A stretch of 64,000 nucleotides of DNA from Antitrichia curtipendula (taxonomy: Eukaryota > Streptophyta > Bryopsida > Hypnales > Leucodontaceae), in the NCBI GenBank assembly GCA_951230915.1, contig OX579641.1, positions 22,422,254 through 22,486,253 on the forward strand. Direction: 5' to 3'. Each line of letters starts with the position of its first letter. Position 1 is the first letter of the stretch. Both the position numbers and the translations under genes were made by a program. Positions 731 through 64,000 of the stretch are shown one piece after another. The notes under the pieces were generated by a model, which saw nothing but the letters and a program-made list of their open reading frames with translations, was not told the DNA's origin and ran no database searches.

Positions 731-734
731 TTAA

Positions 735-1681
735 CCCCTAAAGGACCAAACACCGTTTTTTGACAACATAGCATTTGGGGGCAGCTCACCACAAATGGAA
801 TTTTTTTTTTTTTTTCTTTGAAATTTTCACACAAGATGTGCCCAAGGAGTATCTTTAGGGCCCAACAATTTTCATAACTTTTGACCACATGGTTAAAAAG
901 TTATGGTATGATATGTAATTTTCATTGTTCGGCGGGCAGCCCGGGCAGCAAAAAAAACTTCTTTAAAAATCATTTTCTAGAGAAATAAAAATTTGAAATT
1001 GGTTCTCTAGATTTATGTGCACAAGGAAAGCTTTGAATCATTCCACTTTGATTTATGAGATGAAAGTTATGAGGAATTTTAGTTGTGGGTAGTTTGTGGA
1101 TAGTTATGGAATCTCTACTCTAAAATAAACTTTGAAGTCCTTTATTTAACTCAATTTTCAATATTTTTGGAAAAAAATATAAACACAAGGTGTATATTGT
1201 TTATTACAACATTACAATCGTTTGGATTGGCATTTTTCAATTCCATAATTAAATCCTTAACAATTTAGTGTTTTGAATCATTTTCTACTTCTTTCTACTT
1301 ACTAATTTTTTCCTATATGTTGTACAATTCCAAATGATCTGAAATTTTTCAAGCATGTAGCTAACTTGCTTTGAAGAATGAATCCAAAGAGTTACCACCA
1401 TTTTGGACATTTTTTCATACAAATGTGACCATGTGAAGTGCAGCTGCCCGGTTTTTCGAGGGGACAAAAAAAGGGTTTTTATCACTTCAAATGCTAATAT
1501 CTTGCAATCTATACGGTGAAAATTTCTGAAATTTTTTCCACATCTTCTCAAACTATTTTACTACAAGATCCTACGGTTACATGTGTCCAAAAATGTTTTT
1601 TTTTCCAAAATTTGGTGCTTGTACTAGAAATGACAGTTTGGAAGCGTTTTTTGTGAAAACATAGTCAAAAACCTTTAGGGG
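735..1681. mobile_element. TTAA-flanked non-autonomous element, copy A
   Basis: The left end reads TTAA then CCCCTAAAGGACC, and the right end reads CCTTTAGGGG then TTAA (TTAA at 731-734 and 1682-1685). The ends are inverted repeats and TTAA is the presumed target duplication, as in piggyBac-type transposition. The 947-bp interior encodes no transposase. It shares internal blocks (for example 'gtgaagtgcagctgccc' and 'atatcttgcaatctat') with the elements at 13560-14474 and 33365-34224. Confidence 0.85.
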
Positions 1682-1685
1682 TTAA

Positions 1686-13530: not shown

Positions 13531-13559
13531 ATTTGCCAATTTAACGAAATTGACGTTAA

Positions 13560-14474
13560 CCCCTGAAGGACCAGCCTGCAGAATTTGGCAACATAAAAAA
13601 ATTGGGCAGGTACATGTGGCCAGAGATTTACAAGTTTGAGGTTGAAAATTTTAATAGAAGTTGTAGACGAGGAGTACCTTTCATTTGAACTAAATTTTAT
13701 GACATTTGGAAATACGAGTCAAAAGTTATGGCCTAATATGTTACTTTTTTTCTCGGCTGGGCAGTTTGGGCAGATAAAAAAAAATCACTTTTTTCACAAA
13801 CAAAAATTTGAAACTGGTTTTCCAGAGTTATCTATACATGGAAAGCTTTTAATCATTCCATTTTGACCAATGAGTAAAAAGTTATGAGGAGTTTTAGTTT
13901 GCGGGCAGTTTTGAAATCTCTACTCTAAAATAAACTTTGAAGTCTTTTATCTTACTCAATTTCCAATATTTTTTGAAAAAAATAAAATCATAGGATGTAG
14001 ATTGTTTAATACAACATTTCAACCATTGGAATTGGCATTTTTCAATTTCATACCTAAATTCTTAACAATTTAGTATTCTCTACTTCATTCTTCTTACTAT
14101 TTTTTTCGTATATGTTGTGCAATTCCAAATGATGTGAAAATTTTCCAGCATGTAGCCAACTTGTTTAGGAAAAAGAATCCTAAGAAGCACCACCATTTTG
14201 GACATTTTTTCATAAAAAATTGAGCTTGTGAAGTGCAGCTGCCCTGTTTTTCGCAGGATCAAAAAAACAATTTCAGTGATTTTGAATGCTTATATCTTGC
14301 TATCCATGTGGTGGAAATTTCTGAAATTTTTACCACATATTCTCAAGTCAGCATACTACAAGATTCTATGGTTACATGAGTAAAAAAAAGTTTTTTTCAA
14401 AAATTTGGTACTTGTATTAAAAATGGCAGTTCTTGAATGTTTTCAGTGAAAACATAGTCACGGAACTTTAGGGG
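13560..14474. mobile_element. TTAA-flanked non-autonomous element, copy C
   Basis: It is flanked by TTAA at 13556-13559 and 14475-14478. The left end is CCCCTGAAGGACC; the right end AACTTTAGGGG is more diverged. The 915-bp interior is colinear with copy A ('gggcagtttgggcag', 'gtgaagtgcagctgccc', 'atatcttgc'). Its right end is 13 bp upstream of an apparent splice acceptor (GTTCCAG, exon from 14488). Confidence 0.85.
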
Positions 14475-15478
14475 TTAACTGTTCCAGCAAGATGCAGAAG
14501 CATGGGAAGCTGAGAGTCGTCCTTGTTTTCAAGAGAGCAAGGCTGATGAAGAAGAACGAAGAATCGCCATAGTCAACAGTGAGGTTGATCACAAGGCCTG
14601 ATCGCAAGGCTGCTGTTGAAAAATGGAGGGGAGCCATGAGTGATGGCTACAATCAAACGACTCCACAATCACTTGATGTTCAAATAATCGAAGATTGTAT
14701 AGACAAGGTACTTCTACGCAATTCACAATGTATGTATAAGATTGTTAATGGAAATATAGTCAGCAATTTCATTAACAAAATTGAGCCAAGTGATTCGGAA
14801 TGCCAATAGTTTGTGACATTTGTCTCCACAAAGTTCTAAAATTAGGACTTGTATAGATTCACAATTCAAGTGATTTATTTTGAAAAGTGCCCAAATTTTT
14901 TGGAATTATGCCAATTTTAACATTGAATTGTAGGAGAAAAATTGCAATATGAGACAATAAGTATGATTGGGCATTTCCTATAATTTAATTAAATTAAATA
15001 GAGAGGCAACATATTTGTATATATACTAATGCAAATTACACATTGATTTTCCAAAAATTTGTTGCCCTATGGATCTTGTGGAATTGGAAAATGGAATAAG
15101 GGAGAAGGTTCTAAAACCAACAAGGAATCGAAAATGGTTCAAAATGTGCTCACTAAGATCATTTTAGGATGTAAATAGCGTGCTCATTGTACAAGGTGCC
15201 TTAACTTTTTTTGAAATGTGACTTAAGACATGTATTATAGACGTGCATTTTGGTCTCAAATGACCACCATAGGCACATTTAAATCATTTTAGATTCCTTG
15301 TTGGTTTTAAAACATACCTTAAAAGAGGTCAATAGAGACATACTTAAAATCAATTGTGAATGTGTAGGCACGGTTAGATTTGAGCTTTTTGGAACAACAA
15401 ACAATGCAAATGGAAACTGAAATGAAGACACTACAAATGGAGCTTGCCAAGCTAAAGGATCAACTTTGCCAAACTTAG

Positions 15479-16522
15479 ATTCAATATGATGAATAACATC
15501 CTTTTGTAATAACAAACTTTAACTCTTAAATGTCTAAAAAGCCCAATTGTAGTTATAACATGGTGCCATTTGTATATTTTGACATACACAATCTTGTATG
15601 CAGTGCATGAATTGAGGTATGTTGTAATAACAAAAGTGTACCTTCACTTTGAGTTGGATTGAATGACATATGGCACTCCCAATTGGGATCATTGTTGCAC
15701 ATATTCTATAATAATGGTGTAGTATTTGGCATGATAAGGTTTAGATGCTAAAATGACATCCAAATGAACAATGTTAATTGGTGAATAATCTATCCTATAG
15801 TGTATGTCTTGGCATAATTTTGTACAAAGTCCATATTTTAGGAGTCCAAATTTTGCCCTTTCCATTGGCATTGGACACCAAAGGAAGGAGGGCTTGCATT
15901 TGATAAGAACACATGTGATTTTTTGTATTGTACAAAAGCTTTAACTCTTGAATGTCAAGGAGCTCTATTTCACCATTTTGATTGGCTATATATTGCATAT
16001 AAAATACTTTCTTGGAACAAAGCCTTTTATAACATAGCTTCTTTTAGTAATTGTAAATATATGTTGTTATTTTTAGTAGGTAAAGTTGCATCTTTACAAC
16101 AAATTACATATTTTTTTGGTGAACGATTTAGTGTAGAAACAATATTACTGTGATTTCAAAACCTAATAGATCATATGAGTAGCAAAGGAATTATTTTGAT
16201 CCACTTTAATTCTAAATTGTTGAACCTATAAAATTCCTATGAGATCAAATTTTCATCGTTTTAATATATTGTTGGAGATGGAAAATAAAATTTGAGTTTT
16301 TAAAATATTTGAATTATATTTTTCATTAATCTTCTTTGGGTTGAAAATCAAATTTTTCAAAAAATTCCACAAGCTTATAATACAAATCCATGTGAGAAAC
16401 TTAGTCGAAAACTTTTGAAAATAAGCTCAAGAACATTTATAGATTTCACTTATAGGATTCCAAAATTTCAACTTACCATAGTTGCTTCATTGAAGAAATA
16501 TGAGGTTTCATAGAGATACTAA
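15479..16522. other. AT-rich intergenic DNA, no gene recognised
   Basis: Several short overlapping frames exist on both strands, none with recognisable motifs. Confidence 0.45.
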
Positions 16523-16675
16523 CACTACAAGAAAATGGGTGTATAAATGACTTGTCCACAATGACTACACCGACAACAATGAATGCAAAATAGTCATTTT
16601 GCAATCATTTTGCATTCATTGTTGTCGGTGTAGTCATTGTGGACAAGTCATTTATACACCCGTTTTCTTGTAGTG
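16523..16675. mobile_element. CACTA-type foldback MITE
   Basis: A 153-bp near-perfect palindrome has arms of about 70 bp. It begins CACTACAAGAAAA and ends TTTTCTTGTAGTG, the terminus of plant CACTA (En/Spm) elements. TAA flanks both sides (16520-16522 and 16676-16678), the expected 3-bp target duplication. The only arm mismatch I see in the outer part is T/C near position 15. The transcript would form a long hairpin. Such high arm identity suggests recent insertion. Confidence 0.93.
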
Positions 16676-17061
16676 TAATTGGTGCAAGGCCACTAAGATA
16701 AATATTATAGTTGGAGCTCCAAAATAACTTCTTTCTTTCTACTAGTAGTATAAATAACCCTATTAGTGAAGGTACAAAAATTAGCACTATATATAAAATT
16801 AGTATCACTTCCAAAAATAAAATTGTAAAAATTTCTATTAGTAAGGGTGCAAAATCAACCACCTACAAAATTAGTGTCAATACATATGCTTATTTTTGCA
16901 AAAATTGGTACAATACATGCAATTTTAGCCTAAACTAATTCAATTATTTAAAAAATAATCTAACTATGGTAAACAAGCATCATTGAAAGGACAATCAATA
17001 TGACACAATAATCCTTTAGCAAGCACTAATGATATTGTGATTGATAAATTAGCATCTCACA

Positions 17062-20700: not shown

Positions 20701-22989
20701 TTGGTCTAGGCACTTGATCAAAGATTTCGGTGTCGTGGTGCTGCCTCCCAAACTGGATGCTGGTCGAAATTGTGTTTTTTCTATTGTAAGCGTGACTGGT
20801 CGGAGTATCACAACATGCTTGACCAGGCAAGCAGACAAGTGCCACCTTCAATCCAGCCTGCACCACGTTTCAGCTCCAATAGATGCATAACTTCAATAAC
20901 CAACCCCAGACGAGAAGGTTATGAGACTTCCATTGAGAGGGCGCTTTATTCAAAAAGGTCGTCGAGCATTAGTTGAAAGAGTCATGTCTTCGAAAAAGAA
21001 GTGGAAATGCGTGTGGTCTTCCTCCCTGTGTTCACTCAAGATACGAAAATGTCAGCCAAGTTTTTTCATTTTTAAATGATATAAACTTCCTCAGTATTCA
21101 GTAAATAGTCACTGGACTCCAATATATCCAACATAATGTTAGAATTGTGCAATCACATACTATCTTACAACCATTTCGTCTAATAATCAGGGACTGCTCT
21201 TTGGTTTTCGTAACGCAGAGAAAGTCGGAGGATGTTGCCAAAACGTTAATAGATTCCGGCGTGCAACCAAGAATTATAAACTTAAAATGACGACAAGCTC
21301 GTCAGAAATTCAGCCGTAGACATCTAAAACGATCATAGCAGGCAAGGATTACAATAATGAGCTCCGCCTATAGCAGCTAATTTATGATTCACATGCTGAG
21401 AAGAGTTTCGTGAGCATTTGCTGTTGTCACCTCCTCACACTAAGTGATGCCAGAACAAAAACTATGAGCACAATTGTACTGTGCTGCACAGGTGATTGAT
21501 CCCCCTAAGGCCCTTAATGCTCTCGGAGAGTAAAGCCATCAACCAACGACAAATAGCAAGAGTGTCGTACAGAGATAATCATAAAAAACACTTCATTGGT
21601 AAATCACAGTCACTCTATGGTAAATCAGAATTACAAGCTACCGTAAAATTGCAGTAAGTGTCAGGGCAAATTCGGAGCACAATCGAGATACCAGTTCTGA
21701 TAGTTCAATTTATCGTTTTCTGAGGTAAGTCGGCAAGTTCCAAAGCCCTCCCCCTTCGATGAAAACATTTTTACTGCAAAAGCACAGCGTAAGAACTGAC
21801 TGGCTAACAACGAGAAACTTTAACCACATGACATAATTTCACGATCGGACTCCAAACAGAAACTCCGACTAGCCAAGCTCTTATTGAAATTACAATTGGC
21901 AACCCTCTCAAGCCAGAACACAGTGAGAAGTCTACGTCCCTGAAGATGTCGCGATAAGATAAGGGAGCAACCAAGCGCTGCAGAAGCCAGATGGAAGACC
22001 TAATCATCTAATAGTTACGAATGCAAGGAACACCCTGAATAAAATTTCCACCACACTCGATGAATATCAATATTGCAATTCCTATAAAAATTTAAAACAT
22101 CATTAAGATTCTTCCCTACTAAACCACTTCAGCATTCATCTAATTGGATAGGAAAGGTGAAGGATACAGGATTCAGAGTGAGCTTTGCTAAGCTAACACC
22201 ACCGCACCTGAGTTCCACATCCGCTTCATCAATTGCCAGATCGTTTCAAACTCTTCTGGAGTAACATGCGATATAGGTAATTTCACAGAATGACCGTACA
22301 ACGCAAGTACAAGGAAGCGCGTAAGCAAGCTGACAAAGAAGTACGCAACGATAATACAATGCCGATCTATTGAATAAAAAGTCTTGCGAATATTGCAATT
22401 ACTCTAAGAATGGTGAACAATCGCATCCACCACATCACTATCTTCGACCAATCTCAAGCATAATGAATACACTCCAACTTACAGCTCCGGTTTTTCACAA
22501 ACCTTAAATTCAAAACAAAAAAAGCGCGTAACAAAAAAGCTTCTACACGGTTCCCTCCAGCTTCATACGACACCTCGTTCAAACCAAAAACACTTCAACA
22601 AAATCGGCCAAGAAAACGAAAAACGAAATTGAAAAGAGAGAAAAAGTGTGAATTAATTAAGCGTCATGAACAATCCGAAATCCAAACGAAAATTGGAACA
22701 CTCTTCACCTAAAGACACAAAAACTGAAAACAGAGCCAACGCAAACCAAAACTGCAAGAAATTTCACATCCCAGGCCAAAGAGACACATTCAAAAACCGT
22801 CACCATAACAGGAAACGAAAGACCACGATACAATCATTCAAGTACGTACCTCCAACCTACGCCTTCCGCCTTCCACTATCCCTCTCTCCTCCAACCACGC
22901 TGAATTACACGGAAACCAAAGCGATTCCAGAAAAGCCTCGCTGGAAGCGGGAACACACTCACTCACTCACTCATCAGCCACTCATCACT

Positions 22990-24635: not shown

Positions 24636-24639
24636 TTAA

Positions 24640-25534
24640 CCCCTAAAGTCCCAGTGTCCCCTCAAGGGACAAAATGGATTTTAGACAAGTTCCTACTGTC
24701 TCAATATTTGTTGAATTTTTTTTAATGGAGATAGAAAAATACACTAGCTTTCTGAAAATATAATTTTTATTTCACTGAGTGCCTGGGAGCAAAAGTTATG
24801 ACACAAAAAGCCCATTTTTTTAGTTTGGTGGGCAAAAAAACAAACTCCAAAAAACTTTAAATACATTTTTATAATATTTGTTTTGTATAGATTGTATTTT
24901 TATCTACAAGGGAAGCTTTAATTGTTTTCATTTTGTTTTGTTATGCAAAAGTTATGGACAATCTTATTTTTTGGGCAATTAGAGCATCTATTTGAAAGAA
25001 AAAAATCCTTATAGGATTCATTTCTAAACTCAATTCTCACATTAAAAAAAAAAGGTCCACAAGGTTAAGATTTATAGCTAGGACAATCTCACCGTTGATA
25101 TTAGTGTGTTTCAATTCCATCTTAGAGTTTTGAACAATTTAGATTTTCCTTCTAACTTAACAGTTTTTTAATGAGTGAAAACTAAGTGTGTGTTTTTAGA
25201 ATTTTTTTTCCTAGACTCTCAACTCAATTCTTCATCATATAAAATTAAAAATTAAAAATCAATAGAGTAAAAATTTGAAGTTAAGAAGGTTCAAAGCTGA
25301 AAGAAGTAGATGCAGAGCATGCCAAAAAAATTGTTTTTTTTTACTTTACATGCTATTATCTTGCAATCTATACGGTCAAAGTTTTTGGATTTTCTTCTAC
25401 ACATTTTTACACTAGTCTAATACAAGATCCTACGGTTAATCATGCAAAAAAAATTCAAATGTTTTGCTCTTTGCTATAGAAATGGCATTTTTGAGTGTTT
25501 TCTAATGGAAAAAAAGGCCTTGGGACTTTAGGGG
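24640..25534. mobile_element. TTAA-flanked non-autonomous element, copy D
   Basis: TTAA lies at 24636-24639 and 25535-25538. The ends are CCCCTAAAGTCCC and GGGACTTTAGGGG. Its interior defines a third subfamily shared with 27293-28201, 34666-36649 and 36950-38673 ('caatctcaccgttg', 'ttaagaaggttcaaag'). The TTAA at 25281-25284 is the unoccupied counterpart of the site that carries an insertion in the 34666-36649 copy. Confidence 0.9.
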
Positions 25535-25538
25535 TTAA

Positions 25539-31939: not shown

Positions 31940-31943
31940 TTAA

Positions 31944-32268
31944 CCCTTAAACGACGAGCCGGTCACCATGGAAATCATACGTTTGGGTCCGGTGTGAATT
32001 GTTGGCTTTTAAAAAAAACGAAAAAGCACTCATTAGAAGACAAAATTAATGTAGAAGATCTTCCCTTTCCACACAAAACTTGGAGGATGAATAGTTACAC
32101 TTCTATCCTGCGTGGAGAGATTCATCGGCTGAAAGACGTCCTCAGTCTGCGACATTTATGGGTTAATAATCGACCTGCATTCCAAACCGTATGCCATTTT
32201 GGCCTGGACAATCCTAAAGCCAGGGGGTAAGTTACTTCCTGCAACAATACCCTGGGAGCCCAAAAGGG
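31944..32268. mobile_element. Short TTAA-flanked element (CCCTTAAACGACG type)
   Basis: TTAA lies at 31940-31943 and 32269-32272. The left terminus is CCCTTAAACGACGAGCC. The right terminus read inward is CCCTTTTGGGCTCCC, so the inverted repeat is short. The 325-bp interior recurs, diverged, at 12483-12742 and about 9040-9270. The 104-codon frame across it is not conserved and is not called a gene. Confidence 0.75.
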
Positions 32269-36455: not shown

Positions 36456-36949
36456 TTAAATGCTAATATTTTGCAATCTATTTGGCAAAAGTTTATAAAT
36501 TTCTTCCACACATATTTAAACTAGTCTAATGCAAGATCTTGGGGTTAGAAGCAAATATAAAAATAAATTTCAAATTTTTTGGCTCTTTTTAATTAAAATG
36601 GCATTTTGAATGTTTTTGGATGAAAAAAAATGACTCAATTTTCTAGGAGTTAATGGAACATATTAGGAATACAAGATGGAATAAGCTCCATTCACAATAC
36701 TATTTTTTTATGCACAATTTTTTGCCACTTGGCCATTGCCAAAAGATGTTGGCTATTTTTTGCAAGAAAAAATTTCATTTTGGGGGGTCAAAATTGTTAG
36801 ATTATTGCTTTATATTGAGACTAGTAGCCAAATTCTACCTAAATATCACCAAGTATCACATAAGTATTGAAGAAACAACTAGCTACTTCTCTAAAATAAA
36901 ATAAGAAAACTCATCTCCTCCGTGCTCAATCCTATTATTTTCTATTTAA

Positions 36950-38673
36950 CCCCTACATGACCATTGTTCCTTTGGGGGCCTAATGGGATTTTGGGCTAGT
37001 ACCTACGGGCTGAATTTTTGTCATGATTTTTTGAATTTGTTTTTAAGATAAAAAAATTGATTAGCTTCATGGGAATATTATTATTTTTTCAATTGGTGCC
37101 CAGAAAAAAAAGTTATGCTCAAATAAGCTCAAAACAAGGGAGAAGGGGCATCAAAAGAAATTCAAAAGTTGAATTTTTTTTCTCTTTGATTATATGTTTT
37201 TCTACATGGAAAGATTTAATTCATTCCATTTGGATTTGTTATAAAAAAGTTATAGACAATCTTGTTTTGGGGGCAATTAGAGCATTTCCTTGAAAAAATA
37301 ACTTGTAGGATTAATTTCTGAATACAACTTTTACAAATTCTTAGAAAAAAGTTTCACATGGTTAAGTTTGCTTCCTAGAACAATCTCACCATTGGAATTA
37401 ATGCATTTTAATTCCATTTAAGAGATATTAATAATTTAGATTTTCCGTCTATTTCATATTTACTTTGACTTAATAATTTTTAAAGAATAGAAATTAAGCT
37501 TTTTTGAATTTTTTAAAGAATCTCAACTCAATTCCCTACAATAAAGATTTAAAGCTCAAAACTATGTAGTGCAAAACATTTAATTTAAGAAGGTTCAAAG
37601 TCAAATAATCTAACCCCACAATGTGCTAAAAAACTTGTTTATTTCACTTCAACCCTTTATTGCCTAAGGCTTATTTGAATTCAAAAACAACATTCCTTTT
37701 GAAGTGTTATAGATCTAAATGTTACTCAATTTTAGAGATCTCAACCCTACAATCTTGCAATGTATGTATTGTAGATGACGTGAATCAAATTTGGAGTCAT
37801 TTGGCCACGTAGATTGCAAGATTATAATGCTTTATTGTTTGAAAAGGATGCTAAAATTTTCCTAGCAACACATTTAGAGGTGAAATTCAATTTCTAAACC
37901 TACTCAAATGAAAAAACTTTAAACTATAAGTGATTCAAAACCAACATACAAACACATTGGTGAAAAAAATATCATTGAATTGACTTATTGTATTTACAAA
38001 ATGACTTTCAAATGTCAAAAAAATAGCAAGAAAAGTTGCAAAAAACACCTCTGAGGTTAAAACCCTTCTACTAAAATGTTTTTTAGTCATTCATAACTTC
38101 TTGGATTGATATGAAATTTTATCCAAATAAACTAAAATAGTCGATATGCACAACTTTTCCAATTTTTTTTTATTGGGGAGCATAACCCAACAAATTTTAT
38201 TGAAAACAAACATTGGATGAAGGAGATACAAGCCCTTGAAGTTGTAGCCATCAAATGCAGTTTGGTGAATTCAAATTGAGTTTGTGCACTTCGATTGGCT
38301 TCCAAGAAATCATTACATCTTGGATAGATTTGAATATTTTATCACACAAACTAGAAAAGAGAGCGCAACTTTTCCAACACGTTTTATTGAATTTTGACAT
38401 TAGATGCAAAAAGTTACAACACTTTGAATTGGACTTGAAACTATGTGAAGACACTTTTGGTCCCTTTAGGCAATGAAGGGCTAAACACAGATATCTTGCA
38501 ATCTGTTTGGTCAAAATTTCTGAGATTTTCCCACACATTTTCACACTAGTTAGGTGTAAGATTCTACGGTTACATGTGAAGAAAAACAATTTTCAAAATT
38601 TTAAATTCTTAGCTACAGAAAAGGCAGTTTTGAGTGTTTTTTGGCAAAAAAAAAGGCCTTGGTCCTGTAGGGG
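36950..38673. mobile_element. TTAA-flanked element, copy H, carrying a nested insertion
   Basis: TTAA lies at 36946-36949 and 38674-38677. The ends are CCCCTACATGACC and GGTCCTGTAGGGG. The interior matches copies D and E apart from an inserted 828-bp element at 37653-38480. It lies directly upstream of the BAGP1-like gene's leader. Confidence 0.88.
37653..38480. mobile_element. Nested element with CCCTTYATTGCCTAARGG termini
   Basis: The left end CCCTTTATTGCCTAAGG mirrors the right end CCTTTAGGCAATGAAGGG. Flanks are TCAA and CTAA, probably decayed TTAA. A relative of its interior lies inverted at 1-310. The 112-codon frame on the - strand (38251-38589) runs through the element end and is not a gene. 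Confidence 0.8.
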
Positions 38674-38899
38674 TTAACCTGAAAGTGCCCTTGACTGTCG
38701 GGAAATTCGAACCTTCCAATTGCTTTCAAGCAGTCCATCATAGGCAGCACGATACCGATAGTGGGTAACCAACAAAAAACCACTTTAGCAAATCTACAAA
38801 AGAACCCGTTAATGTGGACAGGGTTCTAGTTGGAAAATATTCCGACCCCGTGTGAACGCGAGTAAGGTGAGGGCAAACCTAGAGCCAAACTAGTATGCA

Positions 38900-50768: not shown

Positions 50769-50999
50769 TAAGGCAAAATGCCTTGACTGCCATGCTCGTT
50801 GAATTTCGAGCTCATGGCAATGAAGAGACTCTAAGGTATTGACATAACAACAAACTATCTTCATTTGTGTTTGAAGAAATGTCCATAGGAAGAAATGAGT
50901 AGATAACTAAGAATCTTTCATAGCACCTATGTGAAATTCAATATAAAGCACGACCAAACTTGAGTAGATCAAATGGAACTTAACCCTTTAATCCTTTAA

Positions 51000-52230
51000 G
51001 GATTGAGGCACAAAAGATATGAGGTCAGTACAAAAGCCCATCTGATGTACAATGAGACAAAATTGGATGGACTTGTGGATTATGAGGGCCATAATTTTTG
51101 GGAATATAGGGTAGGTTATGTATTAGATAACCGATGAGCCGTGCTAGCGGCGAATAGGTTATCATACATAACTTGGTTGTACATTTTCCAATCACAACCT
51201 TTGATCTTCATGATCCAAGGTGTAGGAAGCAAGTTGAAAGGAAAGAAGGTTATGAGTTGCAACTTGTAATGGCAATGATGACGGGTTGCCAATGGGAAGG
51301 TGCCACGTTAGCATTGAAAAGTCAACAACCGGTTATGAGGATTTGGCCTTGAAAATTTTGTGATAAATTGCAATGATGAACTAGGTCTAAGAAATTGAAG
51401 TACAAAATTTGTATTAAAGTAAGGCAAAACGTAGAGAAAGGGAGCTTGCATACCTTGAATGCCAGCTATGTACACTAGGATGTTGATGTTTATATCATTG
51501 ACCGTACTCCATATGCCTTGAAATTGCGATGGGAGCCGGTTTACACATCATAAATTGACTTACTTGGTCGATTTCAAGCCAATAATCCACCTGCGCAAGG
51601 TGGTGTCGCATTGTATTTACATATACTATATAAAAACAATTAATTGTTGTCAAACTAGAGGATTTTTTGGAGAGTTTAAAGGTCCACATAGAGAAGATTC
51701 TACCTTTTTTACCTCTATTAGACAACCATTAGACATTAGTTCTTTTATTTCTTTAGTTGAAAGCATTTTAAACTTTATTTGTAAATTTGAAATTGTTAAA
51801 TGAAAAGGCGAAGTTTGTTTTATCTTTTCTTTTGAATTTTAAAAAGGATAAAGGCCATGTAGTTGCTATGTAAGAGATAAGGATAGAGTTATGGGAAGAA
51901 AAAGGTGGCCAATGGATGAATTGTGGTCCATGTGACATTTTAGAGGCCAAATCCATTTGCTTAGGTGGAAGGGATGGAGGATGAGGTGGAAGATAAGATG
52001 GAGGGTCTTCTTCTTCCTCCTCATAGTTTGCTTAAGGGTAACCGAGACTTTGGAGAAAGACAACAGATTGTATAGGAGAGTTTTTGCAATGAAATTACGG
52101 GAGTTTATTCATCTTGTTTTGAGGTTTTTGTAAACCTATCACTCACTCAATTTAGAGTTTTTTTGTGGAAGTTATGCTTGATGGAATGAGAGAGGGATAA
52201 TTGTCATGGAGTGAGAGGGCAGAATTTTCA
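51000..52230. other. Left arm of the 8-kb element, no gene recognised
   Basis: Short open frames on both strands (for example 51495-51725 - and 51555-51803 +) lack recognisable motifs. It may hold decayed coding or cis-acting sequence. Confidence 0.35.
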
Positions 52231-52234
52231 AAGG

Positions 52235-52700
52235 CTTATAACTTTTGGGTGAAAAGTTTTTTTGTCTTTGAGATTTTAGAAGAGTATGTGCTGTTTAGAT
52301 GTTAGCTTTCTAAATATCTTTCATTTTCTTAGTTTGGAGTTAGGATACAAAAGTTATAGGCTTAGAGGCGAAGTAGTGAGAGACTGCCTTTGATGTGAAG
52401 AAAGAGAACTTTGACCAACTGTAAAAGTCAGACAATACTTTATTTTGTGTTGAAATTTAGAAGGTGTGTAGATTATTGTGTTAGCTTTCTATAGAGATAT
52501 CCTACAATTAGTTTGGAGTTTGTATGTTAGAGTTATGGGCTTGAAAGAAGAGTAGTGATGAGCTGCCTTTGAATTGGAGAAAGTGAACTTTGACCAACTA
52601 TAAAAGTCAGATAGTATGATATTTTGAGTTGAATTTTTGAGGTTTTGTAAATACTGTTGTTAACTTTCTAGAGAGATTTTTATTCTCAATTTGAAATCTT
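52235..52700. repeat. Tandem repeat, period about 176 bp, inside the 8-kb element
   Basis: 'ctgcctttga' followed by 'gaactttgaccaact' and 'aaaagtcaga' recurs near 52384 and 52560. 'gttagctttcta' and 'agtttggagtt' recur at the same spacing. Two to three diverged units, non-coding. Confidence 0.85.
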
Positions 52701-53769
52701 GGAGCGGTTGTGGCACTAATATTAGTGGCGGGACCTTCCTAGAAGAGAATTTATAAGGTTTAGGAGCAACATCAACTACTTTATATTACATGTGATATTT
52801 TATTGGGACTTTATGGTGGAATATGGAGATTTTATGGAGGTTTTATGAACATGTACATATATTTTACTAAATCACGGGGCCCTTTATTTTCCGGCCAAGT
52901 TTAATTGCAGCCAGAAGCCCGGCATTTTCCCAAGGCAAGGCCTCTCTACTCAACAACGGCCTCAAACAATGAGGAGTGATTGTTAGATTCTAAATGCAGA
53001 AACCATGCACGCCTACAATGTCTACTGAAGCCATCCTTCAGAAGCAGTTATCTCCAAACTCAATTTCAATTTTCTGTGAGCAACGATTTCATGCCAAACT
53101 GCACCTGGGCACTGGGTTACTAGTTGTGATTTTCCATTACATAAGGAGAATTCAAATCACAAAAGGACAATTCAAATGAACTCAAATCACGAAAAGACAA
53201 TTCAAATGAATAGAGGTTTGTACACTTTAGAATTCACATCAACGGGACCATCCACATAATGCGATCTTACATCACAAAAAATTTAAAATTTGTAAAGTCC
53301 TTCATCAACAAATTTAGAAAATTGCCCCTTCAACCTACACTCCAAATGTAGGATGAAAACTACATAATTGGAGAGAAACCTACTTCCCCTAATCCTAGCA
53401 TTTTTATCTCCACCCAACATCAACATCACCATGAAGCAAAGAGTTACCGAAATTGAAGTTCATCATTAAATATGCTATGTGGGCATGAAAATACTACTTG
53501 TATGCCTATTCAAAACAAGTAGCTACACACTAGTCTAAGGCACTAAAACAAAAATAGGTTTGCCACTTCAAAGACCTTTCATTGCTGGCAAATGTATAAC
53601 AACTTTGTAAACTGCCAAATCAAAAAGACTTGCGTTGACGTGGTGTTGTATGGTCTCGATTTCTTCCCAATCCATCGTCTTCATCGGCCAAGTTTAGTTT
53701 CAACTTCCACCACCTCTACACCTGTGCTATGCCATGCACCTATACAAATTCAAGTTACAACACTCTCAA

Positions 53770-55740
53770 CTAAAGTCTGCGGTTGAGCTTCTCGTGGTGA
53801 AACAAATAGTAATTCTCCTGGCAGATCCATTTTGCCCCACATGCATCACAATACCACCGTTGTACATGACTGCATACCACACAAGCACGCTTGAGCTTGG
53901 AATGCGAAGGAACATAAATGCGAGCTAGCCTAATTCTGTGTAATGCCGGACTTGGATTTGGCATTTTCTTGAATGCCCTAGCATTCAAAGATTCTTAAAT
54001 CAAGTGTTTCCCCACTGCAATTTTTAATTTAAGGTGTGGCAACACTTTCAATCCCAACTCCTCGATCTCATCAATCCATATGACATAGGAGTTGACAAGG
54101 CTTTGGTCAACAAGAAAATGAACAATCTTCAACCACCACTTGTGACACCTCAATTGACACAAATAATTTTCGCGTAGCTGATTGGTGACATCGACTCCGC
54201 GCATGTACTCCACATACTGCCAGTGTATTGGCAATGAAGGCACGATGAATTGGCCCTATAGTCCTACAATATGATGGAGGACCTTTGTATTCAGTTCCCA
54301 CGATGCTACAGCTGTGCTTAGCAGCGTGGCAAGTTTTTTGTCTTACCACAAAATGACACCCATCTGCCCGTGCATATGTATACATATCAACATTGACTCG
54401 TGGACTTCAAGGTTAGGGTCCCTAGATAGACCCATAGGAAGGTTTTTGCTCGTTCGTCTCACGGTTCCAGTTGCCCATATGCCTTGCATCATGAAATGAT
54501 GGAAGAAATTTACACTAGCAAATAAATTATCCACTACTAGACAATGGCCATGGTACTCAAGCCCTCGAATCATCCTATCAACTACATGGTATCCTAATCC
54601 ATGCTCCCTACTACTTGAACCTTCTCTAAAATAGACCTCTATTTGCCAAACAAATAAGCTCTTAGAACTAGCCAGAAGCCAAATCTTGATTCCAAAATAG
54701 ACTGGTTTATCGGACATAAATTGCCGGATAAAGCAATAACGACCTTTATAAGGGATCACGCATTCATCGACTGTAATTTCATGTTACAAGTTGTAGATTG
54801 ACTTGGAGACTTAAAGAAACCTGTCAACCAACCACCTGGTCTTAGCGATTCGATCAAATGCAGGGTCTTTAAGATAGATCTCTCACCACAGTTTGGTTGT
54901 CCACTAAGTGGAGACAACACAAGATTTGAAACCAACAATCATGAGACATGACTTCCAAAATCAATTCACAATGAAGAAATGTGACTCAGATTGCATCCAA
55001 TATTGACAAAGAGATGCTAATCTTTTGCATCCTATAAAGATGTAAATCCCCAACCAACCGTGAATGTCGCCAATAGTGACATCCTCCCAATTGCGACCAC
55101 CCTTCATACGCGGCTCTTCATTGGGCTTGTGCAGCAAGACAATTCAAATATACCAATTCGTTTCAAGAACAATTCGTGCTAAGGTTCCTTCATCCCAATA
55201 CATATTGAATATGCGCTCTGGTTTAGGAAGCCTAGCACTAGTAGGGCATTTTAGGCCAAGCTTTGGACCCGTGAAGTTGTCTCTACTTCACACAAATTAT
55301 ATGCTAGAAGAGCTCTAGGAATCTGAACGGTAGTGACTTGCTAGTTGTGCCGTGTCTAAGTACACGGGGTTAAAAGACTCGGACGTCATGCACCAATCAG
55401 CAAACCTGACAGCGACATCTTGTGATTTATTAATGTAGTCTACTTTGAAGTCGTCGTCATCACTTGACAAAGTGTCACAAAATTCTAGCAACCAATTGCA
55501 ATCACTAGAGTCTGCGTCATCTACGCTTTGAGGTAGGGCATCTTCCTCTTCATCGTCATCGGAGTCTATGCGAATATGTGAGAGATAGTCCGGTAAGGTA
55601 TATCTTACCTTTGGAAACGTCTTTTTGGCAGTCAAATTTTGGATGCTATCAATGCTTTCTATGTCAGAGGAAATATTGTACTCCTCGATAGGCTCTCCCG
55701 GTGGTTGTACTTCCTTGGAACTCTTCACCTTACTGCCAAC
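53770..55740 (-). pseudogene. piggyBac-type transposase, decayed
   Basis: In - strand order: an acidic N-terminal segment (IDSDDDEEEDALP; open 55315-55728), a TLARIVLETNWYI motif matching the piggyBac 'EETNRY' region, a segment like 'T.EI..FLGI', then the catalytic core. Three Asp fit the DDD triad: first in ITVDECVIPYKGR (codon 54766-54768), second in CLVVDNLFAS (54529-54531), third in YMRGVDVTNQLR (54190-54192). First-to-second spacing is about 79 residues, as in the insect enzyme (D268 to D346). The C-terminus has a Cys-rich finger (RACVVCS…WYCDACGAKWIC…LFHH). Stops lie near 54772-54840 and at 53995, and a frameshift lies near 54240, so the copy is inactive. Family membership is clear; precise subfamily is not. 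Confidence 0.9.
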
Positions 55741-55799
55741 AACGCTTGAGGCATGTGTTTGGTTGCTCTAAGTCTCCGAAACCAAGTGTGTCCCTAGAG

Positions 55800-57154
55800 T
55801 AAACATGGAAGGGTTGGTCATGGGATTGAGGTGACTGGGGCGGCACTTCCACAATCTGCTTTGGGTTGAAGCAACCTGCCCATATATTCTAGGGACGACC
55901 ATGCCCCTCTTCACTTCTTTGATCTCCTATGTTAGGTCCTAAAGCAACCCGCACGTCCCCCTCCTCCATCAAACGCTCTGTGTCTTCCCCCCCAAATTGC
56001 ACAAAATCACTCGCTTTCCAATTTTTACATCAATTCCCTCGCCAATGATATGACCTTGGGTCCACATTGGAGTGTTGCCATGTTTGAATGACACTAGAGA
56101 AAGTAAACAATTTGGCACTAGCACGGTCTAATGCCCCAATCTCGACGTACTGAATTCCAATTAAGGTATAGTGCTCATAGATGAGAAGGAATATCTCTAA
56201 CTACTACAACCGTCACTTTATACAACGCCCCACCTGGACGATTTGCTCCATACCTTGGAGCCTTCCAAATAGGCTCCACAAAGCGCCACAAATCGTCTCG
56301 AAATACGTTGTCCTACAAGTTAATGGGAACGGTCTCCATATTGCCAATTAAATGGTGACACTCAGGCGGTGGTATGTCGGAGAACAATGCGTCAACATTG
56401 GCTCCTTCATCTTCAGCCCCGAACATATCGTGAGCTGGCTGCTCGACATCCACCGTAAACTATGCTTTGTCCTCTTCTAAGCCTCCTAAAGTTGCAGACA
56501 TTGGAACTCCACTGGTAGTGATGGCCCCGGTGAAAACTTTCGGGGTCAAATTTGACATTGGTAATTATGGAGCCTAGTTCCGGGGTCTTCAAACCTTTGC
56601 AATTGGCCCCTTACCCTTCTCTTCCCTCTTGAACCTTCCATTCTTTGTACAACTTGGGATCACTCACAAATAGAGCAATTGTGTTAGTTACAGGCCAAAT
56701 GCAATCAATGTACCTTAGCAATTGACGTCTTCTGCCCAATTTTAAGCCCCTAAAGCAGTGACCTCAAGCAAGACGAAACTGGGATCTATTAAGAAGGAAT
56801 GGCTAAAGTAGTGTATGAAGGTGGTACATTATTTGGCGCAAACTTAGTGCATAAAGTAGGAGGTGGTGGACCAATGTCTTCTTCCCCTATTCTGTGGACA
56901 CGCATTAGTATCTATATAGCAACTGGAATCAAAGCATCGATTGTTGTAGGTTGTTTCTTTGCCCGCGACCTCTTGACTTTCTTTGCATTGGCCTCCATCA
57001 TAGCAAGTGCCTTTTTTTGCATCCTACTCTTCATGGTTTGGACACTTGGCTCCTCCTCTACAATGGCGTCCAATATGGGGACGTCACCTAGCTGATGCGG
57101 GATTGATTTCTTCAGTGGCGGCTTCCTCATTCTCTTCGAGGGTGCTAAGGTCAT
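55800..57154 (-). pseudogene. Decayed coding sequence upstream of the transposase, function unknown
   Basis: The open part 56912-57154 (-) encodes a basic stretch (KSRMQKKALAMMEANAKKVK, then RSRAKKQ) that looks like a nuclear-localisation region. Below it, piecing frames together gives protein-like text such as AEDEGANVDALFSDIPPP, WKAPRYGANRPGGALYKVTV and QFGGEDTERLMEEGDVRVAL, broken by stops. It could be a long N-terminal extension of the transposase or a separate element protein. I recognise no family. Confidence 0.5.
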
Positions 57155-57789
57155 AGCGATCTGAACCTGCTGCAGAGAAAGAGAATCGGATTAAATTTGA
57201 ACAAAACAATGATTGTCCACAATTTGAAACACACCCTCAAGCGACAACATTACATAGGTAGAGAAACAAAGATTGCATTCAAGTACTAATTTATATTAAT
57301 TTTACTAGAACATGAATGGTCTTTTTAATGACTATGGTGAATTTCAGGCCGTAGAAGAAGTGAGATTCAGGTGCTACACCACAAATTTCCACTTTCAAGG
57401 AAATTCGGTTTTGTAGAAAAGGAGTGACTATTGGATTTTGAATCGTCATTGTAAATCCTCCAATCCCAGTTGAAAAGTGGAAAGTGTTTTATTGTCGGGT
57501 GCCAATTGAAAGTCACGAATTGCATCCATATAACTAATCATGCTCCACCGAATTGAGCCCTTATTAATATAAATTACTATTGTGTAAATTTTCAACTAAC
57601 TAAAAAAGCTAGTAGCTTTCAACATGAAGCGTGCATTTGGAACTTGGATTCAAGAGCCCCAAGTCCTTTGTAAAAATTGAAAAAGCATATGCTAGTGGAG
57701 TTTGAGGAAAGGGAGTTGTGAAAAGCTTGTTTACGCTAATTCAAGAGATGGAGGGAGAACGAAACATTCAAAAACATCATAAGTTGGGT

Positions 57790-58510
57790 CTATCCTACAC
57801 CCCTTTGCACTGTAAATCCTAAACCTTGCCTGACAAATGCATCGAAACTTGCAGGTACCCTAAACCCAAAACCCACCCAAAGTATGAGTTCAGTAATCCC
57901 CTCACTTGGATCTACAAATTCTCTTGCATTGGATGGGGAGGTAATTGTTGGGCTCCATTCAATTAGAGCTTTTGAGTTTACGCGGCCTTCTTCATCTTCT
58001 ATCCTTATCGGAAACACAAAAATGTGACGCAACGTATCATGCACAAATTGTAAAAATTCATAGTGATCACACCAACCTAAGAGGTGGGCAGCGTAGCGAT
58101 ACCAAAGGTAACGCAATTGGTCTTCAACGTCAAATTGCCCTCTAAGATTCCACTTTGTTGGCCTAGGCTCCGCTTGTAGCTAAATTCTATCAAACAAACG
58201 CACAACCATAGAAGCTGCACGCTCAAATGCACCTTGCAATCAAAACCAATGTTGTAGCTTTTCTACAGAATCGACGTCCACCCTAGCAATGTAGCCACCA
58301 TGGTTGGGTCCCATGAATTCGCTACTTGAATTGGAAAGAAGAGATTGCACTCAGACCTGCAACACTTGAAAAGTCGAGTACAACCTTATTGCATTCATAA
58401 ATTGCCCGCGGCCTCTTGTAGCTGTTTTCCCCCCACCGAGACGCTATCTTGCAATCCAAGTGCGTACAGCCCACCTGGAATGTTCCAATCCTCCAAGACA
58501 CCAAAATCAC
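57790..58510 (-). pseudogene. Second decayed open region in the 8-kb element, function unknown
   Basis: Two open stretches (58322-58510 and 57790-58116, -), joined through a few stops, read like one protein: WRIGTFQVGCTHLDCKIASR, then FMGPNHGGYIARVDVDSVEK, AASMVVRLFDRI, LRYLWYRYAAHLLGWCDHYE, and a C-terminal part ending FRVPASFDAFVRQGLGF. Its composition (aromatic, few low-complexity stretches) suggests a folded globular protein. No family is recognised. It may be an accessory gene of the element or a captured host gene. Confidence 0.5.
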
Positions 58511-58995
58511 ACTCCACTACTTGTTTGGAGAGCAAATTCTACAATAACCAGCTTCAATGGTGAATCCCACTACTTGTCTCGAGTTCCTGGTCACATAAGA
58601 AACTAATAAAAAAAAATGCCACCACACCTCCTCCAACAAGGAATCCAAGGCACCCAGCTTGCACGACTTCAGTTGTTCTAAATTGTCACAAACCGGGAGT
58701 GTAGGTCATCTGCTGCAGTACTTACAAGAAATTTGACACATATAAATCTTAACCAGAATACAAGCTCACACCTTTGTATTGTATTCTCTAGACTGTACGC
58801 AAGCTTTTGAACTCTACAGAATCTTGGAAATAATGATCTCTTTTTTTTATATAAAAAATTGCTAAATTTACGTGAGCTGCTTGCCTTTCAATTCGTGGTT
58901 CTGTACATTTTCCAATTTGTCAAACTTCAACACTAAAACACAACAATAATGTGAACTATAGTCCACTTTTAGCCACTCAGGCCTTAAAGGGTTAA

Positions 58996-59999: not shown

Positions 60000-61615
60000 T
60001 AGTGTTGATTACAACGAAGCTTGGACGGTATCCGACTGAGATATTCCTTGTAGATTGATACCCGTCACCTGTTCATACCCGGTGAACCTGATGAGAAATC
60101 TCTCCGAATTTTGAAGAACAGAGGAGAACAATCGCGGCAAATATTTGGTGTAGACAGCAATCCGAAGAGCTTTGGTTCGATTGAAATTCTGCAGTTCTTC
60201 AGCTCTTTCTGGTTTGTACTTCACACTCAGAAGCAACAGAGAGCTTTGACTGCATATCTAGTTTGTGGGCTCATTTTGATCCATTGCGTTGCATTGACGG
60301 TTCTGGTTTCAGTTTAGGGTTTGTGGAGCTTCTGGATCAACTGGATTTTCCTTTGATTATTGTCATTGTGGTTTATTGTGAATGGTGGTATCATTCTTTT
60401 CTTCAAAATCTTATTGTATTTTATGTCTTGGTTTTGGGGTTTATGTATAATTGGAAGCTAGTTTGAGGTTTCAGTTGTAGTGGAGGTCAGTTGGGGCATT
60501 TCTTGTTTGAGAGAATTTGGTGTGGTTCCTTGGATTAGCAAGTTTGAAAGCATTAGGGTATTTGTTTTGTAGACTTTGGTAATCTCCGTCTCTTAAGTGA
60601 CATCTTATCACGGAGATCCTTTGCCATAACTCAAATCGGTGGTTTGGTAGCTGTATTGTTGTACAATAGAGATTCTGGTTTAAGAGATTGTTGTATCTTG
60701 TCTAGGGAATTTGGAAATTTTAGGATTGAACTTTACGAGTATTTCTTCCATTTGCATAGTCATTCTATTTAAATTGAAGATAGACTGTGTGAGGGATTTC
60801 TTTTGTAGTATCTCAATGTCACAAGTTGTGGTGACTTGTAAGAAACATCCGAACTATTTGTGGTGACTGGATTTTGTATGTCTACTTGAGTTATGGCAAA
60901 GGAATAGTAGCATTCTAAGATTGGTGAATAGGTTTTTTTGAGTGTATTAATTAGTGAGGATTATACTGAAAAATATATGAAAAATGTATGAAAAAAATGT
61001 GTGGAGTATGATGAGAAATATTCTAAGAATTATATTTAGGGCAAAGACCCTCGCATTCAACCGCTTGTTGTCGAACCAATGGTTTGAAAATGTAGACATT
61101 TCTAGTTCACAATTTAAGTAAGGCATGTGTTAAAAGCCATTGGGGCATGCTGGGGTTCACCATTTTAAAGAATGAATTTCTGATTTCTCATAGAGTTTCG
61201 ACCTGCTGGCATAAGCATACTGGCAGTCTTTAAAACTTTCAAATAGGGTTTTTGAATAGAGAGGATTATACCAATGAATATGTTGAATAATATCCTAACG
61301 ATAACTGAAAGTCACATATAAAAATTACACATTCTGTTTAGGGTAAGGTAGAGGTTCCATTGACCATACATGTGATGTTTGATTTTTTGCAATTGGTTTT
61401 TATTTTAACACAAAATAAAATTGCAAAATTTAAGATGGTGCAAGTTTCTAGATTGTTGTAGGAAAAGGTTCAAAGTTCACCTGTATGGTGAATGGAACCT
61501 GTCCCTTTCAGTGTATGGTGAATGGAGAGTTTACATCAGAGACACTTGCTGGTTCATGACTTAATCTTATGCTGGTCTATTATTTGCAGACTGACTGGAA
61601 CAGAGTCTCTCCACC
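60000..61615 (+). promoter_or_regulatory. Promoter and 5' leader with intron of the SLC44-type gene
   Basis: Composition becomes gene-like from about 60000. The acceptor TATTTGCAG at 61581-61589 sits 26 bp before the start codon, so a leader intron is likely, with a first non-coding exon perhaps around 60050-60320. The donor was not fixed. Confidence 0.5.
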
Positions 61616-64000
61616 ATGGGACTTGAAGGTGGGACATCCCAGTACGAGGACATCGAAAGTGACAAAATCGAGGAGCCTCTTTTGGACAAATCTGAGCTTA
61701 TTGGAAGGGGTTACCAAATCCAACCAGACACCGTGGTGTCGCTCCCTTCCTCTCAAGAAGGCTCCACTATATTTGGCTACAATGTTGGTATCAGGCCATA
61801 CCAGGACCTGATTTTCACCATCATCTTCGTTCTCCTGATCCTTGTCTCAACCTCTTTTGGCATCTACGGAGTGGTCCACTCCAACCCTGACTACCAACGC
61901 CTTGATTTTGCACATTATGACCCTAGTCACGGTTGCTCCATTCCAGAAAGTATTCAATTGGAGCCTAGATGGGAGATTTTACACATCTTGACGCCTTGTC
62001 TATTGAAAAATGCAGTGTTGAAATCCACAGCACCTTCTACTACATCCATATGGATCACACTGGGATTGACACTAGCCCTTAGTGGCCCATTTGCTTGGGG
62101 ACTGTTGTACCTCCTTCGAGTATACACAAAGGAGCTTGTGTATGCGACCTTACCTTTTATTATCCTTCTCCCAATAGTGTTGGATCTGACGGAGCTCATC
62201 CTGTGTCTACGCACCATAGAGTGCCGAACCGAGTTTGACTCCACAGGACAGTTTGCTGTGTTTTCTGTTATCTTACTCATGTGTGGGGTCATGGTTTATG
62301 TGATATACGCCAACTGGGATCGTATTGAGATGACCATACGAGTAGTGAAAACTTCCGCTGAGGCTTTGCACCACAACTTGGCGCTTCTGTTTGTGCTTCC
62401 TAGTTTATCAGTTCTGCTAGTTTTGTTCTGTGCCCCGTTTGTTGTTTTTATGGGATATGCGTATACGAATGGGAAGCTGGTGACGAACCCGGAGCTCGTA
62501 GATCACCCGACGAGACAGTGTGCGCGGGGCACTGATACACCATGTTGTATTTGGGAGCCTGCTGCGTGGGTGCCGCCTTACGAGTATCTCTCGGGGTTTG
62601 CCATTCTCTGGGCTGCGATGATTATGGCACAAATTCAGGTTTTCACCATCAGTGGGACCATCTCGCAGTGGTACTTTGCGCAAGCTGGTTCGTCCGCTGT
62701 GAATGCAACGAGACGTGCGTTGAGGTATGCAAACTTTTTACAAGCAATATGTAGTTTTTGTTTTGGGGGGATTTCAGTGTGATTGTGGTAGCTTTGGATT
62801 TTTTGTCATCATCATGCTGTAAGTAAGGTAACGCAGACCATTCCAGGCCCAAGTTTGGCAAGCCTGTTGCAAGCAAAACTCTTCTTGTGATGTACTTGTG
62901 TGGTGTGAAATGTACATCAGAAGGAAAAAATTGCCTGCAATGGGCTTATGCAAACTTGTGCCAGAATGGCTGAGTTACCTTAAATGGAGTGTTATTGGGC
63001 TGTGTGTATGAAACTGCCACTGCTGCCGTTGTCAAGGGCCTCAAGCTAAATTGAGCTTTTAGAAAATCTGACTAGTTTGTTAAGCTCTGAAGCTTTTTGT
63101 CGTGAAGAATGAGATATTCGATATGACAAGTATCCTGTGTTGGTTTTCTAGTGCTTAGCAGCTGTTGGTTTTTAATGATTGCGATTGGGTTCTAGAGCTA
63201 AATCTGTTGAGATGAAATCATATCACTATAAATTCCTTATGCAATTCAAAGTAGGAGGTTGTAGTCCAGTGTAAGTGAGTGTAAACAACTCCATGTCCAT
63301 CCAAAGATGAGTGGCCGTAGCATTTAGCCAAGTCATGCTTACACCCTTCTTGCTAATTGAATTTTAATAAGTATGAATGTATGAGTTGCTGCTGGTAACA
63401 GGGGTTAGTATTGGAAAAGGGATGAGGTCCCTTATTCACATCCTAGTCAATCTTCTAAGCCTCCTAACTTTTCGTTTGTGTTGCAGTGTTGCGTTTGGGC
63501 CGTCATTTGGAACAGCCTGCCTAGCTGGGCTTGTTGTTGCAATTGTGCGAGTGATTCGAGGAGCACTGAATAAAGCAGACAACGAAAGAGGTCAAGAAGG
63601 CGCACTAGCGGTGTTTGTGCGTGCTTGTCTGCAGTGGATCCTTGAAGCCGTGGAGTTCTTCACGAGATTCACTTCGAACTTTGCAGCCATTACTGGAGAG
63701 AGCTTCTATGCATCAGCCGTCATGACGTACAATCTTTTGAAGAGGAACCTTTTGTCCATGGTGCTTGTGGAGGTTATTTCAGATCGACTTCTGGCTATGG
63801 TGACATTCGTCCTCTCTGTTGCATATGCCCTGCTGGTAAGCTGCATCACCCTAATGGTTACTGTATCCTCGACTATCGTGTCTTTGCTTTCAAGATACGA
63901 GTTCTTTTTTTTCTGACATTTTTTCGCTTTTTTTGGCAGGTATATGGAGTATTGTCTCTGTCAACCGGCTTGACGAGGGATCAGAGACTGATCACAGCGG
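61616..64000 (+). CDS. Choline transporter-like protein (SLC44 family), 5' part
   Basis: Exons 61616-62724, 63487-63835 and 63940 to beyond the window end, with GT-AG borders in consistent phase, encode about 506 residues of a family usually near 700. The ATG lies in a favourable CCACCATGGG context. The N-terminus is cytosolic and acidic with a EEPLLDKS motif; the first membrane span is about residues 65-90 (DLIFTIIFVLLILVSTSFGI). A loop follows, then several spans in residues 140-260, then TISQWYFAQ and FGPSFGTACLAGLVVAIVRV, which are strong SLC44/CTL signatures, and the VYGVLSLSTGLTRDQ stretch. Plant CTL1/CHER1 proteins of this family act in choline transport and vesicle trafficking affecting sieve plates and auxin. 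This gene's orthology within the family is not settled. The 3' end lies outside the window. Confidence 0.9.

Follow-up and report, generated by a model that had tools for sequence, protein, structure and literature searches.

Does a plant genome carry genuine piggyBac transposons, and, if so, is a single copy an isolated oddity or one of many? The question is raised by a 64,000-nucleotide stretch of a moss chromosome (the window; contig C9, positions 22422254-22486253), in which a first-pass annotation had proposed a piggyBac-type element with TTAA borders, inverted ends and the relic of a transposase with three catalytic aspartates (DDD). We put the probability at about 0.95 that the window holds a cut-and-paste DNA transposon of the piggyBac superfamily, inserted at a TTAA in the moss chromosome and since decayed. 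Its anatomy, borders and other copies, its catalytic residues, past selection on its catalytic coding sequence, its decay and the sequence nested within it are documented by the DNA. Taken alone, the element is unremarkable, a decayed representative of a known superfamily; the interest lies in the moss population, a large one of which the window element is one relic and no isolated oddity. The genome searched comprises 400.19 Mb in 303 contigs.

A decayed piggyBac transposase gene

The catalytic and Cys-rich part of the relic was translated as one minus-strand frame with stops read as X (P0001); this frame, from 55767 to 53770, includes a frameshifted stretch near 54.9 kb (Table 1). The domain PF13843 (DDE_Tnp_1_7) matches the relic over positions 2-349 of 349 with an E value of 6.2e-44, the sole Pfam match at E <= 1, and a PDB sequence search at the same cut-off returned piggyBat (9c0f, 1.3e-16) and piggyBac (6x67, 2.2e-12) and no others. 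D334, D413 and D526 stand in the catalytic columns, which hold D in 67, 65 and 56 of 68 aligned rows; the remaining rows have gaps (1, 2 and 11) and, in the second and third column, one N each. The triad is present in 25 of the 30 genome rows, the other five being gapped and one of these also carrying an N. In the Cys-rich C-terminal domain, C629, C632, C640, C643 and H658 are invariant in a four-row alignment. The proposed DDD relic is thereby confirmed, and it is interrupted by 12 internal stops.

Upstream of the catalytic part, broken remains of an N-terminal extension persist to about 57190. A long extension is likewise found in P0002, P0009 and P0030, the long relatives inspected, in which the PF13843 stretch begins at residue 500, 466 and 587, respectively. 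These belong to the 37 relatives of the relic in the protein collection (P0002-P0038, E <= 0.001), metagenome proteins that carry PF13843 and are 32-66% identical to P0001 in the aligned part; they differ from the relic in that many are stop-free over their whole length. The best of them, P0002, is 62% identical across 99% of the query. In a tree of 68 rows, from which P0036, P0037 and L031 were left out for short overlap, the window groups with L075, a complete relative elsewhere in the genome (0.985), and then with P0002 (0.97), the nearest to the relic outside the moss genome; the lineage of window, L075, P0002 and P0027 has a support of 0.915. With the coding part of the relic as a DNA query, the host genome gave 38 matches including the window itself, at 63-88% identity, and the 13 next after self are 73-88% identical.

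An AlphaFold2 model of P0002 from 29 sequences was too poor to use, with a mean predicted local distance difference test score (pLDDT) of 43; Foldseek with this model ranked piggyBat and piggyBac chains first, as the sole three matches at E <= 0.001. Residues ~171-270 of the model form a small beta-barrel (pLDDT in blocks reaching 84), whose chromo/Tudor/SH3-like matches are weak (E ~1) and give at most a hint.

Substitutions between L075 and the window are distributed over the three codon positions as 48/34/79 of 287 and 44/37/81 of 290 in the catalytic part, and as 56/51/83 of about 257, again with a third-position excess, in one N-terminal part. The excess in the catalytic part indicates that the lineage was once under selection for protein function. 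Such a trace of purifying selection would also be left by a domesticated host gene (PGBD-like) that forms no part of a transposon; the 12 internal stops argue against domestication, as do relatives sitting between TTAA-CCC ends and the several copies in the genome. For the window copy, its stops and its position between transposon ends refute domestication, and we consider it very improbable.

Borders at TTAA target sites

The 4-bp target site TTAA is present at both borders of the element. The motif TTAACCCTTTAA occurs without mismatch exactly twice in the window, at 50980-50991 (+) and 58984-58995 (-), and seven times with at most one mismatch, against 1.02 expected in shuffles; a 13-nt perfect inverted repeat (I24) takes in one flanking base per side. 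Across the genome, TTAACCCTTTAAGGCCTGA has 21 matches at up to one mismatch and its reversed control none, and the shorter motif CCCTTTAAGG alone is modestly enriched (966 against 615 in the reversed control). The inverted ends are of the CCY kind: the right end reads CCCTTTAAGG, and the left CCC if read at 50980 or TCC at 50988. CCC is the left end of the copy on contig C10 and of the relatives L074 and L075. Together with the moss host and the PF13843 match (E 6.2e-44), these TTAA borders and inverted ends bear out the proposal of a piggyBac-type element in a plant.

The extent first proposed, 50980 to 58995, holds on the right and shifts on the left. All four of the other scored copies end at window position 58995 or 58996, that is at the last TTAA base or one beyond. 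On the left, matches besides the window itself begin at 50988 (C10), at 50979 (C4, with a weak extension) and at 51004 (C7), and the fourth lies inside the C4 copy. In alignment both C10, which opens with TTAACCCTTTAAGGCCTGAGGCAC, and C4, which opens with TTAATCCTTTAAGGCTTGAGGCAC, begin at 50988, upstream of which the C4 bases differ from those of the window. The end of the C7 copy is degenerate, with several TTAAYCC-like units. Judged by the two copies clear enough for the purpose, C10 and C4, the shared left border is the TTAA at 50988, so that the similarity of other copies ends at TTAA on either side and the first-pass reading stands in this respect.

The 8 bp before this border, TTAACCCT, may either have arisen by tandem duplication of the terminal unit or belong to the flank. 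In the first case the true outer left border would be 50980: positions 50980-50995 read TTAACCCT-TTAATCCT, two 8-bp units, the C7 end has its several similar units, and the window shares with the C10 copy the bases TGGAAC, which in C10 directly precede its single TTAACCC. Set against this, C10 and C4 align from 50988 only, and C4 has different bases in the place of TTAACCCT. We regard an outer border at 50980 as a real possibility, somewhat short of an even chance, and give the element from 50988.

Native length and nested sequence

Two complete relatives with TTAA at each end, L074 on contig C6 (5,622 bp) and L075 on contig C1 (5,628 bp), are 97.4% identical (5,471 of 5,617 columns) and lie in different surroundings; L074 agrees with the window in 71.3% of aligned columns (3,977 of 5,577). 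The relic corresponds to the gene inside these longer relatives, which have ends of the same kind, and is not part of a smaller element with its own ends. The window element had been called long for its superfamily at 8 kb; this is right for the copy as it stands (8,008 bp) and not for the native length, which is 5.62 kb in the relatives. The 8 kb is therefore made up of about 5.6 kb and ~2.3 kb of additional sequence that includes a nested repeat.

To judge from the relatives, an element of this family would be about 5.6 kb long, with TTAA next to its CCC-type ends; its single gene, on the minus strand, would encode a transposase in which a long N-terminal extension precedes the DDD catalytic domain and a Cys-rich domain forms the C terminus. 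If the transposase works like that of insect piggyBac, it would cleave where TTAA meets CCC and insert the element at a new TTAA.

Compared with L074, the window has 2,323 extra bp, spread over four stretches that are each 20 bp or longer (51022-52814, 56723-56758, 57266-57394 and 57446-57810). Compared with the C10 copy, which is 1,742 bp long, has both ends and is without the transposase, the window has an extra 217 bp (51114-51330) and 1,105 bp (51551-52655). The 217-bp stretch is a dispersed repeat: out of 929 candidates, 38 other copies were scored, at 93-98%, and the C4 copy of the element runs straight through the position of the repeat, with 7 bp of overlap. The other extra stretches could be insertions in the window copy or deletions in the relatives.

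Several observations weigh against this account of the element. Its left end at 50988 is TCC and not CCC, the 8 bp in front of it are open to two readings of the outermost left border, and the left-end evidence is thin, with four matches besides self of which one is the internal C4 piece and one the degenerate C7 end. L074 and L075 share AC before the left TTAA and six bases, GTTATG, after the right one, and only then do their flanks part. Finally, in the first N-terminal stretch, substitutions between L075 and the window are no commoner at third codon positions than at the others (46/42/40 of 122).

The shared GTTATG directly follows the right TTAA in two separate insertions (L074 8685-8690 and the matching side of L075), which may reflect either chance or a target preference. 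L074 also adjoins, one base apart, another outward-facing TTAACCC end at its positions 3050-3070, so that TTAA elements stand back to back. Closest to the window element is a copy at 32684209-32704708 of contig C4, 86-88% identical in the coding part, whose left end is split in two pieces by about 17.5 kb of other sequence. The 217-bp repeat folds better as single-stranded DNA than 200 shuffles (z -4.9), and among 15 copies inspected TTATG is found at the left end in 10 and at the right end in 14. It contains GATGAG...CGAA, a motif suggestive of a hammerhead ribozyme; this reading was rejected, since no third helix is seen and Rfam listed no ribozyme either for the repeat piece of the window (E <= 10) or for five further copies (E <= 1). 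An Rfam scan of the whole window at gathering scores gave no match.

Table 1. Features of the window, in window coordinates.
Feature	Position	Strand	Basis or remark
Whole piggyBac-type element, both TTAA sites included	50988..58995 (8,008 bp)	transposase strand minus	homology of other copies
Extra 8-bp TTAACCCT unit outside the homologous left border	50980..50987	+	terminal-unit tandem duplicate or flank
Left end, TTAATCCTTTAAGGATTGAGGCAC	50988..51011	+	alignment with other copies
Right end, reverse complement TTAACCCTTTAAGGCCTGA	58977..58995	-	inverted repeat, other copies, genome motif count
Nested dispersed repeat, 217 bp and second GGTTATG copy	51114..51337	+	absent from C10 and C4 copies
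Stretch missing from C10 copy, inside 51022-52814 missing from L074	51551..52655	+	alignment
Stretch with 494 bp missing from L074 (57266-57394, 57446-57810)	57266..57810	+	alignment
Transposase relic, catalytic and Cys-rich part	53770..55767	-	666 positions, 12 internal stops and a terminal one
First catalytic Asp codon (D334 of P0001)	54766..54768	-	catalytic Asp column
Second catalytic Asp codon (D413 of P0001)	54529..54531	-	catalytic Asp column
Third catalytic Asp codon (D526 of P0001)	54190..54192	-	catalytic Asp column
Transposase N-terminal extension, split over several frames	55768..57190	-	relatives' long extension, codon positions
Open stretch upstream of transposase (P0039)	57790..58395	-	aligned in L074/L075, not called a gene
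E1, short element, facing TTAACCCC ends	731..1685	+	end motif pairs
E2, short element, facing TTAACCCC ends	13556..14478	+	end motif pairs
E3, short element, facing TTAACCCC ends	24636..25538	+	end motif pairs, other copies
E4, short element, facing TTAACCCC ends	36946..38677	+	end motif pairs

The piggyBac population of the moss genome

A genome search with PF13843 scored 116 matches, the best of 907 candidates and hence not an unbiased sample; all 116 were above the cut-off. The domain contains no stop in 72 of them, and 26 combine a stop-free domain with an open frame of at least 900 residues. The tree resolves several deep piggyBac lineages within this single genome. Among 30 fetched loci, ten pairs have a megablast match longer than 800 bp; nine are 98.2-99.8% identical, and the pair L019/L028 is less alike (94.5% and 75.4%, in two pieces). 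In L034/L036, an identity of 99.83% over 4,140 bp extends across the whole fetched locus, so that duplication is possible, and the same holds for other pairs. Two pairs show a TTAA border, each on a single side: similarity stops at TTAACCCTTAAACG in L014/L022 (98.4%) and starts at TTAACCCCTCAACG in L017/L020 (98.6%). These breaks at TTAA ends are as expected of insertions. At the L014 border, a copy on contig C2 (97%) ends at the same base, and the sequence further out is another repeat. Judging from these comparisons, the moss has a large and varied piggyBac population that was apparently mobile in recent times, and we infer continued mobility for those relatives whose frames are open.

Five places in the host genome match the SAM_LFY family (PF01698), the best of them (1.8e-27) on contig C6. 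The LEAFY DNA-binding exon at this locus shows 97 identities in 100 to PDB entry 4bhk, 'FLORICAULA/LEAFY HOMOLOG 1' (228 bits), presumably from Physcomitrella, and scores lower with 2vy1, 'PROTEIN LEAFY' (164 bits), presumably from Arabidopsis, and with three other chains. Because the exon is nearly identical to 4bhk, we take the host to be a moss. As piggyBac is described as known mostly from animals in the part of PMC12732532 available to us, the loci might be suspected to be contamination of a plant assembly, for example from an animal or a protist. They are, however, spread across contigs of up to 56 Mb, including C6 with its LEAFY gene, and contamination is scarcely credible.

Short elements with TTAACCCC ends

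The window also contains four short elements, E1-E4 (Table 1), of 0.9-1.7 kb, parts of which are 66-80% alike. The window contains 19 occurrences of TTAACCCY, compared with 4.5 on average and at most 8 in 30 first-order random sequences; the looser pattern TTAA[CT]CC[CTA] is not enriched there (28, against a mean of 21.4 and a maximum of 31 in 30 random sequences). At the left end of E3, all 39 other scored copies (out of 4,511 candidates) begin within 4 bp of its TTAA. When the flanks of E1-E4 were compared with the fetched loci, none of 58 matches on the right side passes the border by more than 5 bp; 35 stop there and 23 end before reaching it. On the left side, nine of 17 matches start within 3 bp of the border, five start further inside and three lie wholly in the flank. 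Genome-wide, TTAACCCCTAAAGGACC occurs 13,737 times at up to one mismatch, with one occurrence of the reversed control, a figure that counts ends and not whole elements. Three further facing pairs, 589-952 bp in size, lie in 297 kb of fetched loci.

Judged by their ends, E1-E4 look like non-autonomous piggyBac derivatives. Membership of another TTAA-target superfamily has also to be weighed; Kolobok likewise uses TTAA target sites. No transposase is seen inside any E-type element, and no PF13843-encoding element sharing these ends was found among the 30 fetched loci. E-type ends do lie beside the transposase loci L021, L033 and L040, where they point away from the transposase, and a sharing of ends with these loci was rejected. 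The E-type ends nevertheless follow the TTAA-CCC(C/T) plan of the ends bounding the piggyBac genes of L014/L022 and L017/L020, and we hold a different superfamily to be unlikely. Two ends reading TTAACCCTTAAACGACG, at 12735-12746 (-) and 31940-31951 (+), resemble the right end of L014/L022; both fall in an inverted repeat (I3).

On a wider proposal, the moss would host a native, still-mobile piggyBac system with many deep lineages and intact transposases of ~1,000 residues, which would also drive thousands of TTAACCCC-ended elements and be a main shaper of the genome. We give this proposal an even chance of being correct.

Relation to known systems

piggyBac and piggyBat have TTAA as target and CC-type ends. 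The moss family shares both traits with 6x67, whose host we take to be Trichoplusia ni, and with 9c0f, together with a PF13843-type DDD domain and a C-terminal Cys-rich domain. It differs from insect piggyBac in its moss host and in length, the moss relatives measuring about 5.6 kb against about 2.5 kb (a figure from the first-pass annotation); many moss relatives have open frames of ~1,000 residues, compared to the 594-residue chain of 6x67.

It had been stated that piggyBac is rarely described in land plants, which is fair; 'unknown' would not be. In the passages available, a 2015 survey has PiggyBac among the superfamilies in all groups studied, land plants included (PMC4438587), and a draft genome of the fern Ceratopteris lists 1,230 PiggyBac entries (fragments) making up 0.00% of the sequence (PMC6890710). 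These entries share the piggyBac label in land plants, as annotation counts or a table name only, and differ from the present case in that the passages come without structure, borders or intact genes. PpTc1 and PpTc2 of Physcomitrium, as presented in the sections available, are comparable as young moss DNA transposons of a kind earlier known mostly from animals and fungi, and differ in belonging to the Tc1/mariner superfamily (PMC4054914, PMC7466625). The word piggyBac does not occur in the main text of these two papers, nor in the available text of the Pleurozium and Fontinalis genome drafts. The open-access literature, covered mostly by title and start of abstract and exclusive of subscription papers and preprints, yielded no moss piggyBac paper among the matches listed; PMC10619864 was rejected as a source, both of its word matches being 'piggybacking'. 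The superfamily is known, and this host lineage is little described.

According to the part of PMC12732532 available, piggyBac is a standard insect-derived gene-transfer tool and a foreign import when used in plants. Diverse plant-native families with open frames, if real, would offer a source of plant-adapted transposases. They would also argue that the superfamily has long been resident in land plants, beyond animals, and would make a case for testing by what means mosses live with, and silence, a large population of elements that target TTAA.

Other features of the window

The open stretch upstream of the transposase (P0039) was considered as a second gene of the element and rejected: none of 92 candidates proved to be a relative at E <= 0.001, Pfam gave no match, and its substitutions fall on the three codon positions without a clear excess at the third (53/49/60 of about 218). 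Elsewhere in the window, an 890-residue open frame at 18175-20847 (-), in a GC-richer stretch and with no Pfam match at E <= 0.001, is probably a host gene. At 16522-16676 lies a near-perfect palindrome, with 70-nt arms that are 99% complementary and 15 nt apart. Beyond the right border of the element, two open frames at 61595-63916 (+) match the choline-transporter family PF04515 and are probably exons of a host gene.

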